DNA of 32,507 bases from Patescibacteria group bacterium (GTDB lineage Bacteria; Patescibacteriota; Minisyncoccia; JAHISW01; Tagabacteraceae), in contig JAHJQY010000011.1 of NCBI GenBank assembly GCA_018819015.1, positions 1 to 32,507 of the forward strand. The letters are read 5' to 3'. Positions within the stretch are counted from its first letter, which is position 1. The number at the start of each line of letters is the position of its first letter. A model generated the notes under the pieces. It was not told the origin of the DNA, searched no databases, and worked only from the letters and a program-made list of their open reading frames with translations. Shown piece after piece: positions 516-30,413 of the stretch. The translations under genes were made by a program, and so were the position numbers.

Positions 516-737
516 ATGCAAAAACCATATTACGAAAAACCGAAATTCAAACTATACCAAGCAGATTGCTTGAATATTCTTGCTGAACTTCCCGAAAATT
601 CGGTTGATATGGTTTTTGCCGATCCGCCCTATCTTCTTTCAAATGGTGGGTTTACTGTTCACGCTGGACGGCGCGTTAGTGTCAACAAAGGCGAATGGGA
701 TAAAAGCAACGGATTAAAATATGAAGTTATCATTTGA
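516..737 (+). pseudogene. Truncated DpnA/Dam-like adenine-specific DNA methyltransferase
   Basis: The 73-residue product contains the N-terminal part of an N6-adenine DNA methyltransferase. The catalytic motif IV, DPPY, is at residues 36-39, followed by LLSNGGFTVHAGRR and VSVNKGEWDKSNG, a pattern typical of the M.DpnA-like beta class. Family members are roughly 250-280 residues; here the SAM-binding FxGxG motif and the target-recognition region are missing. The last residues (LKYEVII) overlap the start of the following DpnI-like gene by 17 bases. That is a normal overlap for a restriction-modification pair and suggests the middle of the gene was lost while its true 3' end remained. It cannot encode a working methylase. 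The alternative is a collapsed assembly rather than a genomic deletion. Confidence 0.75.
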
Positions 738-1554
738 AACACAACTTGCGGATAATTATACAAGCCAATCTCAAAAGGTGCGTGTTTTAACCGAGGCGTG
801 GGTCGATAGTGCCATTTATTGCCCTAATTGTGGGCATTTGGATATCGATAAATATCCAAACAATCAGCCGGTTGCAGATTTTTATTGCTCAAATTGTAAA
901 GAAGAATACGAGCTAAAAAGTAAGCAAGCAAGTGTTGGTGCAAAAATTGTAGATGGTGCGTACCGGACAATGATTGAACGATTGCAAGGCAGTAATAATC
1001 CCAACTTTTTTCTACTTAACTACGATTTACAAAGTTTTGAGTCTGAATTTACTACAAAAAGAGACAAAAAAGGCGTTCCAATTGGTAATCTAACTTCTCA
1101 AATTCTGGTTAACATTTATATGAATGAAATGGATCAATTTATAAAACAGAAATTGAAAGCAATAAATTATATCCGTTATGCTGATGATTTTATTGTTGTT
1201 CATTATGATACAAATTATTTGGCTGATTTATTGCTTAAAATTGAGGTTTTTCTCAAGAAAGAACTTAAAATTCGTTTACACCCGGGTAAAGTAACTATTC
1301 GTAAATATTGCCAGGGAGTCGACTATTTAGGATATGTTATTTTGCCTAAAGCAATTATATTAAGAACTAAAACCAAGCAAAGGATTTTTAGGAAGCTAAA
1401 ACAGAGAGTCAATGAATACAAAAAAGGTAAAATCGATGAGCATGCCTTAATGCAAACTTTTAATTCATATCTCGGGGTATTAAGTCACGCAAATAGCAAT
1501 AAACTTGAACAAGAAATACGACATAAGATGTGGGAGTGGCTTAAAGAAAATTGA
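721..1554 (+). pseudogene. In-frame chimera: DpnI-like endonuclease N-terminus fused to DGR-type reverse transcriptase C-terminus
   Basis: Residues 1-107 match the catalytic domain of DpnI/Dam-replacing endonucleases. Zinc-site cysteines are at C34, C37, C56 and C59, and the PD-(D/E)XK triad D53, E64, K66 sits in PVADFYC and EYELKSK, followed by DGAY and NNPNFF. DpnI's C-terminal winged-helix domain is absent. From about residue 108 (nt ~1040) the protein is the second half of a reverse transcriptase: GVPIGNLTSQ (the GxxxSQ form typical of DGR enzymes), YADD at 153-156, LHPGKV and GVDYLGY. The fingers and motifs 1-3 are missing. Each half is therefore incomplete, although the joined frame is open for 277 codons. 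It is most likely a deletion product, or an assembly join; a functional fusion seems unlikely because the polymerase half lacks its first catalytic Asp. Confidence 0.8.
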
Positions 1555-1863: not shown

Positions 1864-2586
1864 CTAAACCCGACTACGGCAGGAAGCGGAACCCCACTTG
1901 TCATTCGAGCTGCCGAAGTAGCTCCAGTCAAGCAACGGCTTGTCGTCGTCGAGGTAGACATCCGGCACAAGGTCGGCGTGCGGGTAGCGGGAACCTGTGC
2001 AGTCCACGTAGTGCTCAGAGAGCACGTTAGTGTGAATGCATACGGCGATACCCTCATCAACCGTCAGGCAGGATCGTTTCTGCTCTGTGATGAGCTTCTC
2101 TGCCTTTTCGGGCGACTTACCGACCATGTCTTTGCCGTCTTCCACGTCGTAGATGAAATACGGATTCTTCGGGGTTTCCACTTGGTCGATGATCTCGTTC
2201 GGATCGAGGTAGGTGTAACCCACCTTATCACCGTTGCGGACCATGGGCATAAGTCCGTAGATGCCCATACAGGTTCGCGGAATCACAGGCACGAACGGGA
2301 TGTGTTCTTCGGGAATCTCCATCTCGGCCGCTTTGGACAGCACGGCGTCACGCTGGTTGCTGAACGCTTCCATGATCGCCTGCGGACAGCCCCGGGACTT
2401 CAGAGCCTCCATCTGACTGTCGAACAGTTTTGCAAATCCGTTCTTGCGTTCCTGCACCGTTTCGACAGTAGCCTGTTGTCTTGCCTCCGTCACCACATCA
2501 TCGATCTCTTCCACTGTCAGCCCCTTAAAAAAGGCTGTCAGTTTGGCCACGAGGCCTTCACGTTGGTCTTTGCACAGCTTTGCCAT
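1864..2586 (-). CDS. DUF5701-family protein, function unknown
   Basis: The 240-residue product resembles the DUF5701 family. It has a helical N-terminus (about 1-90), then FVPVIPR, VGYTYLDP, PYFIYDVEDG, a KSPEKAE segment, LTVDEGIAV, a GSR motif and a C-terminal WGSASCRSR. The family is widespread in actinobacteria and CPR genomes and has no known activity. The ATG at 2586 is preceded by AAGGAGGT, the best Shine-Dalgarno sequence in the window, and the gene has its own promoter and terminator, so it is a single-gene unit. It is visibly richer in G and C than its neighbours and lies in the scrambled region, which suggests recent acquisition. No signal peptide or membrane segment is seen. Confidence 0.65.
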   Translation of the reverse strand: MAKLCKDQREGLVAKLTAFFKGLTVEEIDDVVTEARQQATVETVQERKNGFAKLFDSQMEALKSRGCPQAIMEAFSNQRDAVLSKAAEMEIPEEHIPFVPVIPRTCMGIYGLMPMVRNGDKVGYTYLDPNEIIDQVETPKNPYFIYDVEDGKDMVGKSPEKAEKLITEQKRSCLTVDEGIAVCIHTNVLSEHYVDCTGSRYPHADLVPDVYLDDDKPLLDWSYFGSSNDKWGSASCRSRV

Positions 2587-2734: not shown

Positions 2735-2962
2735 TTAGCTATTTACCCCACTATTTTTATTTATAGAGTTAATATAACTGCAATAATCACAGTCTGGATA
2801 AGCCTGCGGAATGTTATTGCTGTTTAAACATTTATGAGCACCAACGATAGTTTTTTCAACCCAAGAATCGTTGCCTTTATAAGGAATCAACGTAACATCA
2901 AAGTCCAACTTAGCATCAAATGCCTCACGATCCGCTTTGCCATTGCAATAAACAAAATTAAA
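2735..2962 (-). pseudogene. C-terminal remnant of a Cas4/RecB-like PD-(D/E)XK nuclease
   Basis: Reading the minus strand from 2962 to the stop at 2737-2735 gives 75 residues: FNFVYCNGKADREAF..., LDFDVTLIPYKGNDSWVE and YPDCDYCSYI. The closing C-x2-C pair (DCDYCSY) is typical of the iron-sulfur-cluster tail of Cas4/AddB-like nucleases, and the SWVE...CL...IP.....DC.YC spacing matches small PD-(D/E)XK family proteins of CPR bacteria. The nuclease core is missing: the frame hits a stop at 2963-2965, where the DNA becomes the 5' part of the exonuclease VII-like gene on the other strand. The hairpin 2723-2744 spans its stop codon and may be an old terminator. Confidence 0.6.
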
Positions 2963-3217
2963 TTAAAAGATTCGTTAAAAAAGCTTGAGGAAATTGTTAA
3001 ATGGTTTGAAGAACAGAAAGAGGCGGATGTTGAAGTGGGACTTGAAAAGGTAAAAGAGGGGGCAGCCTTAATTAAAGAGAGCCGGAAGCAACTAGGGAAA
3101 TTAGAAAATGAATTTGAAAAAGTTAAGGCAGACATCGAAGAAGAAAACGATATTGATTATCCAGTAGAAGGAGATGAGGAGGATGGTAAATCCGATTCCA
3201 AAGATATACCTTTTTAA
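2834..3217 (+). CDS. xseB: Exonuclease VII small-subunit (XseB)-like protein with SSB-like acidic tail; 5' end chimeric
   Basis: From about residue 41 the protein (KIKLKDSLKKLEEIVKWFEEQ, then VEVGLEKVKEGAALIKESRK) is a two-helix coiled coil of the XseB family, the small subunit of the nuclease that degrades single-stranded DNA. Residues 1-40 do not belong to the family. They are encoded by DNA that, read on the other strand, is the nuclease remnant, so the native start is lost or replaced. No in-frame ATG/GTG/TTG exists between the ATG at 2834 and the conserved part. The C-terminus is a long acidic linker ending DSKDIPF, the same ending as the SSB encoded at 13007-13465. That is unusual for XseB and suggests binding to SSB partners. 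No large subunit (xseA) lies in the window. Expression of the chimeric form is uncertain. Confidence 0.6.
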   Translation: MSTNDSFFNPRIVAFIRNQRNIKVQLSIKCLTIRFAIAINKIKLKDSLKKLEEIVKWFEEQKEADVEVGLEKVKEGAALIKESRKQLGKLENEFEKVKADIEEENDIDYPVEGDEEDGKSDSKDIPF

Positions 3218-3223
3218 AATCAA

Positions 3224-3614
3224 ATGGCGAACATACAAGAATATATTAATAATAGGCATAAGTATAAGGTAAACCTGGATTATCAGCGTCCGCCTGGTGC
3301 ATGGTCCAAAGAAGACAACCAGTGCCTTATAGACACCGTATTGCGTAATGAGCCTATCGTTATTTTCTTTAATTAGAGAAATTGCCAAACGTCCGTTTAT
3401 GCGTGAGTCAGTTGGCATTTCTCAAAGTAGATATGGTAATTATCCTGATGCAGCTCGGATATTATTTTATGAAAAACTTGGCATTAGAGACTCTGGAACA
3501 CCCTCCTTAATAAATTTTTTCGAAGAACACAATAGGTGGCTGGTCAGAAAAAATCGTTACTTTGAGACGAGATATTTTGATAAAGGAATTTTTAAACAAA
3601 TATCCTCTTGTTAG
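3224..3614 (+). pseudogene. Broken DUF262 (GmrSD-like) gene in two frames
   Basis: An ATG 6 bases after the xseB stop opens a 50-codon frame (3224-3376). Its product includes YKVNLDYQRPPGAWSKEDNQ and LIDTVLRNEPIVIFF, the start of a DUF262 domain, as found in GmrSD-type modification-dependent restriction enzymes and related defence proteins. It stops at 3374-3376. In another frame, from about 3376 onward, REIAKRPFMRESVG and YGNYPDAARILFYEKLG resemble a later part of the same domain. The DGQQR core between them is gone, so an internal deletion with frameshift is the simplest reading. The remainder to 3614 may be antisense to another fragment. Confidence 0.6.
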
Positions 3615-13006: not shown

Positions 13007-13465
13007 TTAAAATGGTATGTCTTCCGGGCTATTGTTTTCCTCGGGGTATTCTATGGTGTCAATTATTTCTTTGTCCGCGCCTTGATTTGTGCCGGAGGCC
13101 GATGTTTTTTCTGTTCCGCTTTGGCCGGGCGTCGGGGACCTTCTGGGGCCGAATTGTATTCTTTCCGCCACGATTTCTGTTCGCGAACGCTTGACTCCGT
13201 CTTGGGCTTCCCAGTTTCTAGTCTGTATTCTTCCTTCTATAAGTGCCAATGCTCCCTTTTTTAAATACTGGCTGGTAGTTTCGGCTTGTTTGCCAAAAAC
13301 TACGATATTGTGGAATTGGACTTCTTGCTGTTTTTCTCCGCTTTGATTTTTCCAGACCCTGTTTGTTGCCACGCCGAAAGAAGCAACACTGGCTCCGGAA
13401 GGCAGGGAACGGAGTTCCGGATCTCTGGTTAAATTGCCTACGATAAAAATTTTATTTAAATTCAT
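13007..13465 (-). CDS. ssb: Single-stranded DNA-binding protein
   Basis: The 152-residue product has the OB fold: MNLNKIFIVGNLTRDPELR at the start, then VASFGVATNRVW, FHNIVVFGKQAE and YLKKGALALIEGRIQTRNWE. A Gly/Ser/Thr-rich linker follows and the protein-recruiting tail ends in SPEDIPF. It coats single-stranded DNA and recruits repair and replication proteins through that tail. It lies between rpsF and rpsR, the usual bacterial arrangement, with 9-11 base gaps. The same tail signature (acidic, YP, DIPF) occurs on the XseB-like protein at 2834-3217. Confidence 0.95.
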   Translation of the reverse strand: MNLNKIFIVGNLTRDPELRSLPSGASVASFGVATNRVWKNQSGEKQQEVQFHNIVVFGKQAETTSQYLKKGALALIEGRIQTRNWEAQDGVKRSRTEIVAERIQFGPRRSPTPGQSGTEKTSASGTNQGADKEIIDTIEYPEENNSPEDIPF

Positions 13466-26687: not shown

Positions 26688-29600
26688 ATGATAGATAAAT
26701 TTTCTCAAATAAAAATCCCGAAAAAAATTAAAAAACGGGATGGAAGAATTGTTGATTTTGAAAAAGGCCGCGTTGTGGAAGCGGTTTTTAAGGCCTTTGA
26801 AGCCAGCGGCCAGCCGGACCGCGCATTGGCAGAAGATGTCGCGCAAATCACTTTCGGTAAATTAAGCCAGAAATACCTGCCTCGCGGCAAGGCGGGCAAA
26901 AAAAATATTTCCAAAGCAATTCCTTTCATTGAAGAACTTCAGGATATTGTGGAAGAGTCTCTGGTTGAAAAAGGATTTGCCAAAGTTGCCAAGTCTTACA
27001 TTCTTTACCGGCAAAAAAGGGCGGAATTAAGGCGCGAAAAGCAGGAAATTCTGGAAAAAACCGAGATAGATGAAATTGACAAAATGTTTGATTCTAACGC
27101 TTTGCGGGTTTTGAAAAGCCGTTATTTGCGAAAAAACACAAACGGTAAAATAATAGAATCGCCTAAACAACTTTTTCAAAGAGTCGCTATCCATATTGTT
27201 TTGGCAGAAATTGTTCACGATAAGCGCGTTTCGTTAAGGCGTGGAAAGGAAAAAACAGGCGAAGAGGGAATTTTGGAAAACGAGAAGGCCATAGCCCTGG
27301 AAAATTGTTTAAGGATAGGCGGTTATTTCTTGAATCGTTTTCATGTAAAAGGGCTTTATCATTTTTTTAGCCGTTTTGAAAAAGAAGGAAGAACAAAAAT
27401 TAGCTGGGAGGACTTGGTTCGCTTGCTGAAAAATAATCAATTTAGTTCATATCAGAAAAAAATAGACGAATTTTACGAACTTATGGTTTCCCGGGATTTT
27501 ATGCCCAACACGCCGGCTTTGGCTAACTTCGGCAGTTATTTAGGCATGGGGTCTGCTTGTTTTGCTTTGGATATCGGCGATTCCATAGATTCCATAATGG
27601 AAACACTGAAAAGAGCTTCTATTATTTTCAAATCTGGCGGAGGGTTGGGGTATAATTTTTCCAAATTGAGGCCGGAGGGGGATTTTATAAAAACTACCGG
27701 CGGCACATCTTCCGGCCCTTTAAGTTTTATGCGGCTTTTTGACACAATGACCAACGTTGTTAAGCAAGGCGGAATCAGGCGAGGCGCGAATATGGGTATT
27801 ATGAATTCTAATCATCCCGATATAGAAAAGTTTGTGGTTGCCAAGGAGGGCAATGAAGCGCTGACGAATTTTAATATTTCAGTTTTGATAATGCCTGATT
27901 TTTGGGATTGTTATAAAAAAGATAAGCCATATCCGCTGGAAAATCCCAGAACCGGCGAAATTCAGCGTCAAGTTTCTCCAAAAGTTCTTTTTGAAAATAT
28001 AGTTTATCATGCTTGGGAGTCGGCCGAACCGGGAGTGCTTTTTTATGAAAAAATCAATGAGTTTAATCCTTTGTTGAAAGAATTGGGTCCGATTGTGACG
28101 ACTAATCCATGCGTGCCTGACAATACTTGGGTAATGACTTCCAGTGGGCCCCGGCAAGTTAAAGAATTAATCGGTCAAAAAACAGAAGTGGTGGTTGGCG
28201 GCAAAAAATGGTCCAACCGCGGACAGGGCTTTTTTCACACCGGCGACAAACGTCTTTTGAATTTAAAAACAAAAGAGGGGTTTTCAATGTCTTTGACCGG
28301 CAATCATTTGGTGAGAAAAGTAAAAAAACTTACAAGATACGCGATGGATTGTGAGTGGTTGCCGGCGGTTGAGTTAAAAATTGGCGACAAAGTGGCGCTT
28401 AATTTTAATGAAAATTTTTCCTGGGGAGGTCAATATGGAGGAAAAGAAGGATATTTGTTGGGGCACCTTGTGGGCGATGGTGTAATTTGGCGGGGCAAAG
28501 CATTTTTGGAAAGTTGGGGGGAAAGCAAGGGGGAGAAAAAAGTCCGGACAAAAATTGAAGACTCGGTAAAATCTTTTCCTCACAGAGTCGATTTTAAGGG
28601 TTGGGTTTTTAATAAATCGGGAGATAAATATCGGATAACTTCGGCCGCTTTTTCAAAATTGGTAGAAGATTTTGATATTTCAAATAAAAAAATAATAACG
28701 CCGTTTGTTGAGCGGGAGTCTTCAGATTTTTATAAAGGATTTTTAAGGGGATTTTTTGACACCGATGGCTCTGTTCAAGGCAGTCAATTAAAGGGTGTGA
28801 GTGTTCGTTTGGCGCAAAGCGATATAGAACGGCTGGAAGCTGTTCAGAGAATGCTTTTGCGGCTCGGAATATTTTCAAAGATTTATACAAATAGAAGGCC
28901 GGCCGGGTTTCGCAAGATGCCGGATGGCCATGGCGGCCTTAAATCGTATTTTACGAAAGCCAATCATGAATTGGTAATTAGCGGAGAAAATCTTGAGAGG
29001 TTTTATAAAAGAGTGGGTTTTGAAAATTTAGATAAATCGGAAAAACTTGAAAAACTTTTGAAAAAATACAGGCGGATGTTAAACAAGGAAAGATTTTTTG
29101 CCACCGTGTCCGAAATAGTAAAATCCGAAATAAAAAAAGTGTATGATATTCAAATTCCCGGAATTAACGCTTTTGATGCCAATGGTTTTTATGTTCACAA
29201 TTGTGGTGAATTATTGTTGTACCCAAATGAATCATGCAATTTGGGTTCTATCAATCTTTGGAATTTTGTAAAAATTTGCGAAGATGAAAAAAAAGATATT
29301 GATTGGGAAAAGCTGGAAAAGACCGTGCGGCTGGCAGTTCGGTTTTTGGATAATATTATAGATGTTAATCATTTGCCCCTAGTTGAGATAGAAGATATGA
29401 CTTTTAAAACAAGAAAAATAGGACTTGGCGTTATGGGGTTAGGCGATTTGTTTTTTGAGCTTGAATTACCTTACAATTCTCCGGCGGGGCGTGATTTGAT
29501 GGAAAAAATCGCGGAATTTATAAATTACCATTCTAAGCTGGAATCTGTGAAACTGGCCCGGGAAAAAGGAGCTTTCCCGTTGTTTAAAAAGAGTTTTTAC

Positions 29601-30413
29601 GCGGAAGGAAAACTGCCCTTTGCCGGTTTTTATGACAAAAAATCATGGAATTTTGACTGGAAAGAAGTCGCGGATAAAATAAAGAAATATGGTATTAGAA
29701 ATAGTTACACCACCGTTATCGCGCCGACCGGCTCCACATCAATGATTGCAGGATGTTCTTCCGGCATTGAACCGGTTTATTCTCTGGTTTATCAGAAAAA
29801 TGTCGCCGTTGGTTCGTTTTACTATATTGACGCGGTTTTTGAACAGGCCATGCTTCGCGAGGGGTTGTTTGATGAAAATTTAATAACGGACGTTGTTATG
29901 GCCAAAGGGTCGGTTCAGGAGATAAACTATATACCGCCGCGGCTTAAAAAATTTTTTGTGACCAGCCATGATATAAAACCGGAAGACCATATAAAAACTT
30001 TGGCTAGTTTTCAGAAATGGGTGGATTCTTCAATTTCAAAGACGATCAATTTTCCAAAAGAAGCCACGGTGGGGGATATGAAAAAAGCCTATCTTTTGGC
30101 GCATGAGCTGGGCTGCAAGGGAGTGACGGTTTACCGAGATACTTCCATCAAGGGCCAGGTTTTGAACACGGCTTCGGAAAAATCTAAGAGAGCCGACAGG
30201 GGCGACGGGCTTCAAAGAATAAAAGACGAAAAGGCGGAAGGCCTGGTTGTTTATCGCGACGCCTCCACGGTTTATCTGAATGGAAATGGCGGCGAATCCG
30301 CGACGGATTTCAGCGGCAATAAGGCCGCCAAATGCCCGAATTGCAAAATAGAAGTTTCTTTTAAGGAAGGGTGCGCGTCTTGTCCTGTTTGCGGCTGGGG
30401 GCTTTGCGCTTAG
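26688..30413 (+). CDS. nrdJ: Adenosylcobalamin-type (class II) ribonucleotide reductase with intein
   Basis: The 1241-residue precursor begins with an ATP cone (about 5-105; KRDGRIVDFEKGRVVEAVF). The reductase barrel contains MPNTPALANFGS, SACFAL, KSGGGLGYNFSKLRP, GGTSSGPLSFM, GGIRRGANMG, and TTNPC|CGELLLYPNESCNLGSIN split by an intein at 475-838. After the intein come GLGVMGLGDLFF, APTGSTSMIAGCSSGIEP and a C-terminal zinc-ribbon CPNCKIEV...CASCPVCGWGLC. These features fit class II NrdJ, which makes deoxyribonucleotides without a NrdB partner; none is nearby. Residues 64-70 (LPRGKAG), inside the ATP cone, are encoded by an imperfect palindrome and look inserted. Mature host length is 877 residues. 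A weak GGAG lies 12 bases before the ATG. Confidence 0.93.
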   Translation: MIDKFSQIKIPKKIKKRDGRIVDFEKGRVVEAVFKAFEASGQPDRALAEDVAQITFGKLSQKYLPRGKAGKKNISKAIPFIEELQDIVEESLVEKGFAKVAKSYILYRQKRAELRREKQEILEKTEIDEIDKMFDSNALRVLKSRYLRKNTNGKIIESPKQLFQRVAIHIVLAEIVHDKRVSLRRGKEKTGEEGILENEKAIALENCLRIGGYFLNRFHVKGLYHFFSRFEKEGRTKISWEDLVRLLKNNQFSSYQKKIDEFYELMVSRDFMPNTPALANFGSYLGMGSACFALDIGDSIDSIMETLKRASIIFKSGGGLGYNFSKLRPEGDFIKTTGGTSSGPLSFMRLFDTMTNVVKQGGIRRGANMGIMNSNHPDIEKFVVAKEGNEALTNFNISVLIMPDFWDCYKKDKPYPLENPRTGEIQRQVSPKVLFENIVYHAWESAEPGVLFYEKINEFNPLLKELGPIVTTNPCVPDNTWVMTSSGPRQVKELIGQKTEVVVGGKKWSNRGQGFFHTGDKRLLNLKTKEGFSMSLTGNHLVRKVKKLTRYAMDCEWLPAVELKIGDKVALNFNENFSWGGQYGGKEGYLLGHLVGDGVIWRGKAFLESWGESKGEKKVRTKIEDSVKSFPHRVDFKGWVFNKSGDKYRITSAAFSKLVEDFDISNKKIITPFVERESSDFYKGFLRGFFDTDGSVQGSQLKGVSVRLAQSDIERLEAVQRMLLRLGIFSKIYTNRRPAGFRKMPDGHGGLKSYFTKANHELVISGENLERFYKRVGFENLDKSEKLEKLLKKYRRMLNKERFFATVSEIVKSEIKKVYDIQIPGINAFDANGFYVHNCGELLLYPNESCNLGSINLWNFVKICEDEKKDIDWEKLEKTVRLAVRFLDNIIDVNHLPLVEIEDMTFKTRKIGLGVMGLGDLFFELELPYNSPAGRDLMEKIAEFINYHSKLESVKLAREKGAFPLFKKSFYAEGKLPFAGFYDKKSWNFDWKEVADKIKKYGIRNSYTTVIAPTGSTSMIAGCSSGIEPVYSLVYQKNVAVGSFYYIDAVFEQAMLREGLFDENLITDVVMAKGSVQEINYIPPRLKKFFVTSHDIKPEDHIKTLASFQKWVDSSISKTINFPKEATVGDMKKAYLLAHELGCKGVTVYRDTSIKGQVLNTASEKSKRADRGDGLQRIKDEKAEGLVVYRDASTVYLNGNGGESATDFSGNKAAKCPNCKIEVSFKEGCASCPVCGWGLCA
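26876..26896. repeat. Imperfect palindromic insertion in the nrdJ ATP cone
   Basis: cctgcctcgcggcaaggcggg is an imperfect palindrome that adds LPRGKAG between KLSQKY and KKNISKA. In related ATP cones as I know them, these motifs are adjacent. The reading frame is kept. Confidence 0.55.
28110..29201 (+). mobile_element. Intein with LAGLIDADG homing endonuclease in nrdJ
   Basis: The 364-residue element runs from C475 (CVPDNTWVMTSSGPRQVKE, block A) to N838 (GFYVHN, block G), and the next host residue is C839. Block B is LTGNHLV with its His. The two LAGLIDADG helices are YLLGHLVGDGVIW and FLRGFFDTDGSV, each with an acidic residue, so the endonuclease looks intact. Block F is VYDIQIPG...NAFDANGFYVHN. 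All splicing residues (Cys1, block-B His, penultimate His, terminal Asn, Cys+1) are present. It sits exactly before the CGE cysteine, the probable thiyl-radical residue, so the enzyme is dead until splicing. Confidence 0.95.

Follow-up and report, generated by a model that had tools for sequence, protein, structure and literature searches.

The window analysed here is the complete stretch of 32,507 nucleotides of contig JAHJQY010000011.1 from a Patescibacteria group bacterium. It carries a plus-strand frame for XseB, the small subunit of exonuclease VII (ExoVII), whose disordered acidic tail ends in KDIPF. A tail of this type is typical of the single-stranded DNA-binding protein (SSB). The Pro-Phe (PF) ending recurs in XseBs of several other Patescibacteria lineages; it is more frequent than expected by chance and is not an accident of one genome. 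Judged from sequence, the chances are about even that the tail mimics the SSB C-terminal tip and would bind accordingly, most likely in the SSB pocket of the large subunit XseA and, as a second choice, in the pockets of other SSB partners.

An SSB-type tail on XseB

The family profiles do not settle the identity of the frame, which scores 22.9-23 bits with Pfam PF02609 (cut-off 24) and 25.5 bits with TIGR01280 (cut-off 35). By sequence comparison, the protein is nevertheless confirmed as the XseB proposed in the initial annotation, because its core is 55-75% identical (best segments) to 21 Patescibacteria XseBs encoded directly downstream of XseA. The AlphaFold model shows the two-helix fold expected of XseB, with helices at residues 2-17 and 23-61 (predicted local distance difference test, pLDDT, 83-94) and an unstructured tail (pLDDT ~52). 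No OB fold was found among the Pfam hits of the frame. An XseB profile gave only weak matches to PDB sequences, with the E. coli ExoVII small subunit (8txr) at E 0.33. The window protein thus shares with known XseBs (PF02609/TIGR01280) the two-helix core, the conserved sequence and, in relatives, the gene position downstream of xseA. It differs from them in its scores just under the cut-offs, its SSB-type tip, and the lack of both an xseA and a start codon in its genome.

The tail contains an IDYP motif and, after an acidic disordered stretch, closes with a hydrophobic residue followed by PF and the stop codon, as an SSB tip does. A matrix built from 23 SSB tails, whose own scores range from 12 to 18.9 bits, gives its last five residues 17.3 bits. 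The acidic, DIPF-ending C-terminus, its SSB type and the similar tail of the window's own SSB had all been pointed out in the initial annotation and were found as described, except that the start given for the feature, 3127, misses the reading frame by one base. The SSB of the window ends in EDIPF and has IEYP where XseB has IDYP. Among the open frames of at least 60 codons in the window, only those of XseB and SSB have DIPF or similar xPF endings.

The XseB tail and the SSB tip (SSB-Ct, DDIPF type; PF00436) have in common a disordered acidic stretch that ends in I-P-F with a free carboxylate. The XseB tail, however, is borne by an exonuclease subunit that has two helices and no OB fold, and it is sporadic, whereas the tip is near-universal in SSBs (22 of the 23 sampled end in PF). 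Acidic C-terminal tips with a partner-binding role also occur on the single-stranded DNA-binding proteins of phages, such as gp2.5 of T7 and gp32 of T4. Unlike XseB, these carriers bind single-stranded DNA themselves.

Recurrence of the ending among XseBs

The comparison of C-termini covered 179 distinct Patescibacteria-type XseBs, taken from samples of 384 and 380 genomes and from 21 named contigs. XseA or HRDC-XseA adjoins XseB in 163 of these loci. For conservation close to the window's own lineage, only one genome of its genus and three of its order were available. Nine XseBs from eight families end in PF: the window (KDIPF) and genomes G277 (ADDLPF), G080 (VEDMPF), G038 (LKEAPF), G365 (DNTPF), G081 (KGIPF), G122 (EDAPF), G622 (GQLPF) and G411 (EQTPF). 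In most of the seven families besides that of the window, an intact XseA adjoins the PF-tailed XseB. Most other XseBs end in short acidic stubs, and KVSF, SIPL and DVEF are near misses. The initial annotation had allowed for chance, or for a transfer from ssb in this genome only, should homologues lack the DIPF ending. The outcome is mixed, since the ending recurs in other families and most homologues are without it. A tail universal to XseBs was rejected on these counts, and the tip is not conserved among orthologues. The order of G080 is uninformative on conservation, as only one of its eight genomes has XseB.

Tails of at least six residues are present in 47 XseBs, of which 14 end in F and nine in PF. 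At internal tail positions, PF was not found once in 570, and Phe makes up 1.1% of the residues. The difference between ends and interior is significant when sequences are treated as independent (Fisher 4e-11), and composition alone predicts 0.02 PF endings. A chance ending from tail composition is therefore unlikely. On the same assumption of independence, PF is also more frequent at the ends of XseBs than at those of other open reading frames (ORFs) of at least 120 amino acids in the same loci (2 of 565; Fisher p 8e-5).

An XseA tree was used to follow the history of the tail. It covers the PF-tailed members with an adjacent XseA; the window and G122 are absent, as their XseB has no XseA beside it. 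The seven members covered need at least six changes, and so the tail looks to have been acquired several times independently. Sister lineages from different families both keep it in one case (L077, LKEAPF; L084, VEDMPF).

XseB and SSB tails were compared in ten genomes, eight of them PF-tailed. Examples of like pairs from one genome are those of G277 (ADDLPF/AEDLPF), G080 (VEDMPF/VEDIPF) and G038 (LKEAPF/LKDVPF, XseB first). The summed similarity of own pairs exceeds that of shuffled pairs, with permutation p values of 0.011 (last six residues) and 0.004 (last eight) for the ten genomes, and of 0.010 and 0.007 for the eight. These values are suggestive of a tendency of the XseB tail to resemble the SSB tail of its own genome more than those of other genomes. 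G365, reported to be 99% complete, has no PF00436 match to an SSB and hence allowed no such comparison.

Outside Patescibacteria, 70 XseBs were inspected from the phylum to which the Oleimmundimicrobium genome belongs (Actinomycetota according to NCBI taxonomy). Three end in PF (TDGEEPF, APPPPF and DEKEPF; L244, L246 and L279), and three in LSF or LKF (DQLSF, DTLSF and DELKF; L248, L249 and L255). These are possible further SSB-type tails, with APPPPF lying in a very G+C-rich reading and perhaps representing low complexity. The assembly of Candidatus Oleimmundimicrobium americanum holds a Patescibacteria-type contig with HRDC-xseA/xseB (L012, DFBH01000018.1; G733:C55) in addition to a second xseB; this contig is probably a binning contamination.

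Two other features were seen in the Patescibacteria loci. In some XseB tails, LF stands at the end or close to it (EDTATLF, SADASLF, SKEELF, SETNLFE, DAANLFA and DQTGLFGA; loci L150, L156, L157, L160, L162, L166, L168 and L178). Such tails, for example TATLF, DASLF and QTGLFGA, could be sliding-clamp binding motifs rather than SSB tips, and the tail of the small subunit may generally host short docking motifs. XseAs of many Patescibacteria (L003, L004, L005, L006, L008, L010, L012 and L104) carry an N-terminal HRDC domain before the usual OB fold and the nuclease domain, as tested with a profile in L006 (PF00570, E 3e-21) and judged by eye in the other loci.

State of the xseB copy in this genome

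The genome of the window (G000) comprises 552 kb and is 98% complete, and the window begins at the first base of its contig. No match to XseA was found in it with PF02601 or with the XseA protein of G001, the other member of the same family with an XseB. This lack of the expected partner is read as loss or mis-assembly, and not as a sign of another protein family. XseB homology begins at about 2957, with a junction near 2956, and no in-frame ATG, GTG or TTG lies between 2834 and the XseB core, which begins at the point where the XseBs of relatives start with M-x-K-x-x-L. The 40 codons upstream of it, which open the listed ORF, run antisense to the 3' portion of a further truncated gene, and this gene breaks off precisely where XseB begins. 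Its Cas4-like match is weak and not significant (E 0.12).

The first 3,700 positions are a mosaic of truncated and fused genes with sharp changes in G+C (Table 1). The mosaic reflects either real scrambling and decay or a chimeric assembly at the contig end.

Table 1. Features of the window around xseB and ssb, and further features mentioned in the text.
Feature	Position	Strand	Evidence or remark
XseB frame, LKDSLKKLEEIVKWF...LENEFEKVKADIEEENDIDYPVEGDEEDGKSDSKDIPF	2963..3217	+	84 codons, then TAA
XseB core, two helices (LKDSLKKLEEIVKWF...LENEFEKVKADIEEE)	2963..3145	+	PF02609/TIGR01280 below cut-off; identity to relatives; AlphaFold
Acidic disordered tail NDIDYPVEGDEEDGKSDSKDIPF	3146..3214	+	sequence; no structure in model; homologous to G001 tail
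IDYP motif	3152..3163	+	sequence
SSB-type C-terminal tip KDIPF and stop	3200..3217	+	SSB-tail matrix score; KDIPF 3200-3214, TAA 3215-3217
ssb, protein ends IEYPEENNSPEDIPF	13007..13465	-	PF00436, E 6e-40; one match, sole SSB found in the genome
Foreign 5' extension of listed ORF, outside XseB, native start missing	2834..2956	+	no in-frame start; start position in relatives
3' fragment of broken gene (FVYCNGKADREAFDAKLDFDV...), cut where XseB begins	2735..2956	-	minus frame, stops immediately upstream
Methyltransferase N-terminus	516-737		part of left-end mosaic
DpnI 1-107 fused in frame to C-terminal half of reverse transcriptase	721-1554		part of left-end mosaic
DUF5701 gene, higher G+C	1864-2586	-	part of left-end mosaic
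Short truncated ORFs	near 3224-3376 and 3348-3614		part of left-end mosaic
Ribonucleotide reductase ORF	26688-30413		1241 amino acids

The xseB copy probably represents a gene remnant or a chimera of the assembly, because both XseA and a start codon are lacking. The ExoVII role assigned to it in the initial annotation is accordingly not supported for this copy. That the ORF is dead or chimeric, with its tail idle in this genome, is considered likely, also in view of the adjoining frames, which are truncated and fused as well, for example a DpnI half and a reverse transcriptase half in one frame. On the other hand, the frame of 84 codons, with its tail, is uninterrupted, translation could begin at the ATG at 2834 or at a rare start, and an xseA could lie in the missing 2% of the genome. 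The tail is native to the xseB of the window, judging from its alignment with the tail of the intact xseB of G001, which ends in DKVSF. A remnant in this genome is compatible with SSB mimicry in relatives; such mimicry is plausible for those with intact operons and moot for the genome of the window unless the gene proves intact.

Elsewhere in the window, the ribonucleotide reductase ORF appears to hold an intein (CVPDNTWVMTSSGP...FYVHNC) inside the enzyme.

Possible docking of the tail and its meaning

In SSB partners, the last Phe of the SSB tip enters a hydrophobic pocket, its alpha-carboxyl group is held by a basic lip, and a basic ridge also takes part in the binding (PMC10164576). The free C-terminal Phe, the carboxylate and the acidic residues of the XseB tail would fit these three elements. 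The pocket of XseA would be the most likely dock, since XseA itself has been reported to be an SSB partner. In B. subtilis, it belongs to the interactome of the SSB tail (Costes et al. 2010, PMC3000357); GFP-XseA foci are lost in ssbDelta35, and XseA co-purifies with tagged SSB (PMC3000357). ExoVII is tied to the SSB tail in both cases, with the difference that XseA reads the tail of SSB in B. subtilis, while here the partner subunit would carry a copy of it. Acting in cis, the many XseB tails could serve as an internal competitor of SSB, so that ExoVII stays away from SSB-coated DNA for as long as SSB has not displaced them; alternatively, the tail may substitute for the SSB contact. We infer that it might compete with SSB or join the SSB network, as proposed in the initial annotation.

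Several observations weigh against this mimicry. The B. subtilis study lists the direct contact between SSB and XseA as "not determined" in vitro (PMC3000357). The ending is missing from 170 of the 179 XseBs (~95%), including the closest homologue (DKVSF), and it turns over within genus g299 (EELF, QTPF, EDFTS) and families f1 and f53; therefore, it cannot be essential to ExoVII. Several of the PF tails are weak SSB mimics (DNTPF, GQLPF, EQTPF). When the last four to five residues are taken alone, the likeness to the cognate SSB loses significance (permutation p 0.08-0.24); it rests on 8-10 genomes, of which the related ones are not independent, and with so small and partly related a sample it is no more than suggestive.

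The tail may instead recruit SSB partners other than XseA (RecO, RecQ, RecJ, PriA, RecG), docked in trans and gathered on ExoVII, which would become a second hub beside SSB. The characterised SSB partners all use similar tip pockets (PMC10164576), and the many XseB copies per ExoVII (16 small-subunit chains in PDB 8txr) would give avidity. XseA, however, offers the spatially nearest candidate pocket, and such a hub seems rather unlikely. A slightly smaller chance is given to a compositional accident, in which acidic disordered tails drift and a few end in PF without any function. This would agree with the sporadic occurrence of the ending, its turnover within genera, and the tails with other F forms (TLF, SLF, ELF, VSF), but not with the confinement of PF to the terminus, its near absence from the ends of other ORFs, and the resemblance to the cognate SSB.

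A copy of the ssb 3' end acquired by recombination, or its joining to xseB by mis-assembly, is very improbable. The broken genes in the first 3.6 kb of the contig and the genome-specific likeness to SSB tails would suit such an origin. However, the xseB and ssb ends are unlike in DNA except for the 17 bases encoding the tip, the two tips have different coding DNA in each of the nine genomes compared, and the tail aligns with that of G001, whose xseA-xseB is intact. Copying from ssb at the DNA level was rejected on these grounds.

The mimicry of the SSB tip can be widened to a repeatedly evolved control, in which many tips tuned to the host SSB would fill the SSB pockets of XseA or of other partners and gate the access of the nuclease to SSB-coated DNA. 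Such a control would be found in a number of Patescibacteria families and perhaps also in Actinomycetota. This wider proposal is more tentative, and its chances are put a little below even. The initial annotation knew of no described case. In the open-licence literature, with most subscription papers outside this scope, no paper was found that describes an ExoVII subunit with an SSB-type tail, and none relevant to ExoVII in Patescibacteria.

The SSB tail is regarded as a docking tag of SSB's own. If the mimicry is true, a repair nuclease that is not an SSB has acquired this tag independently and tuned it to the host SSB, which would be evidence that other proteins copy SSB's interaction code. 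The regulation of ExoVII is poorly understood, and the tail would also offer a concrete way into the question of how the enzyme is recruited to SSB-coated DNA or held away from it.
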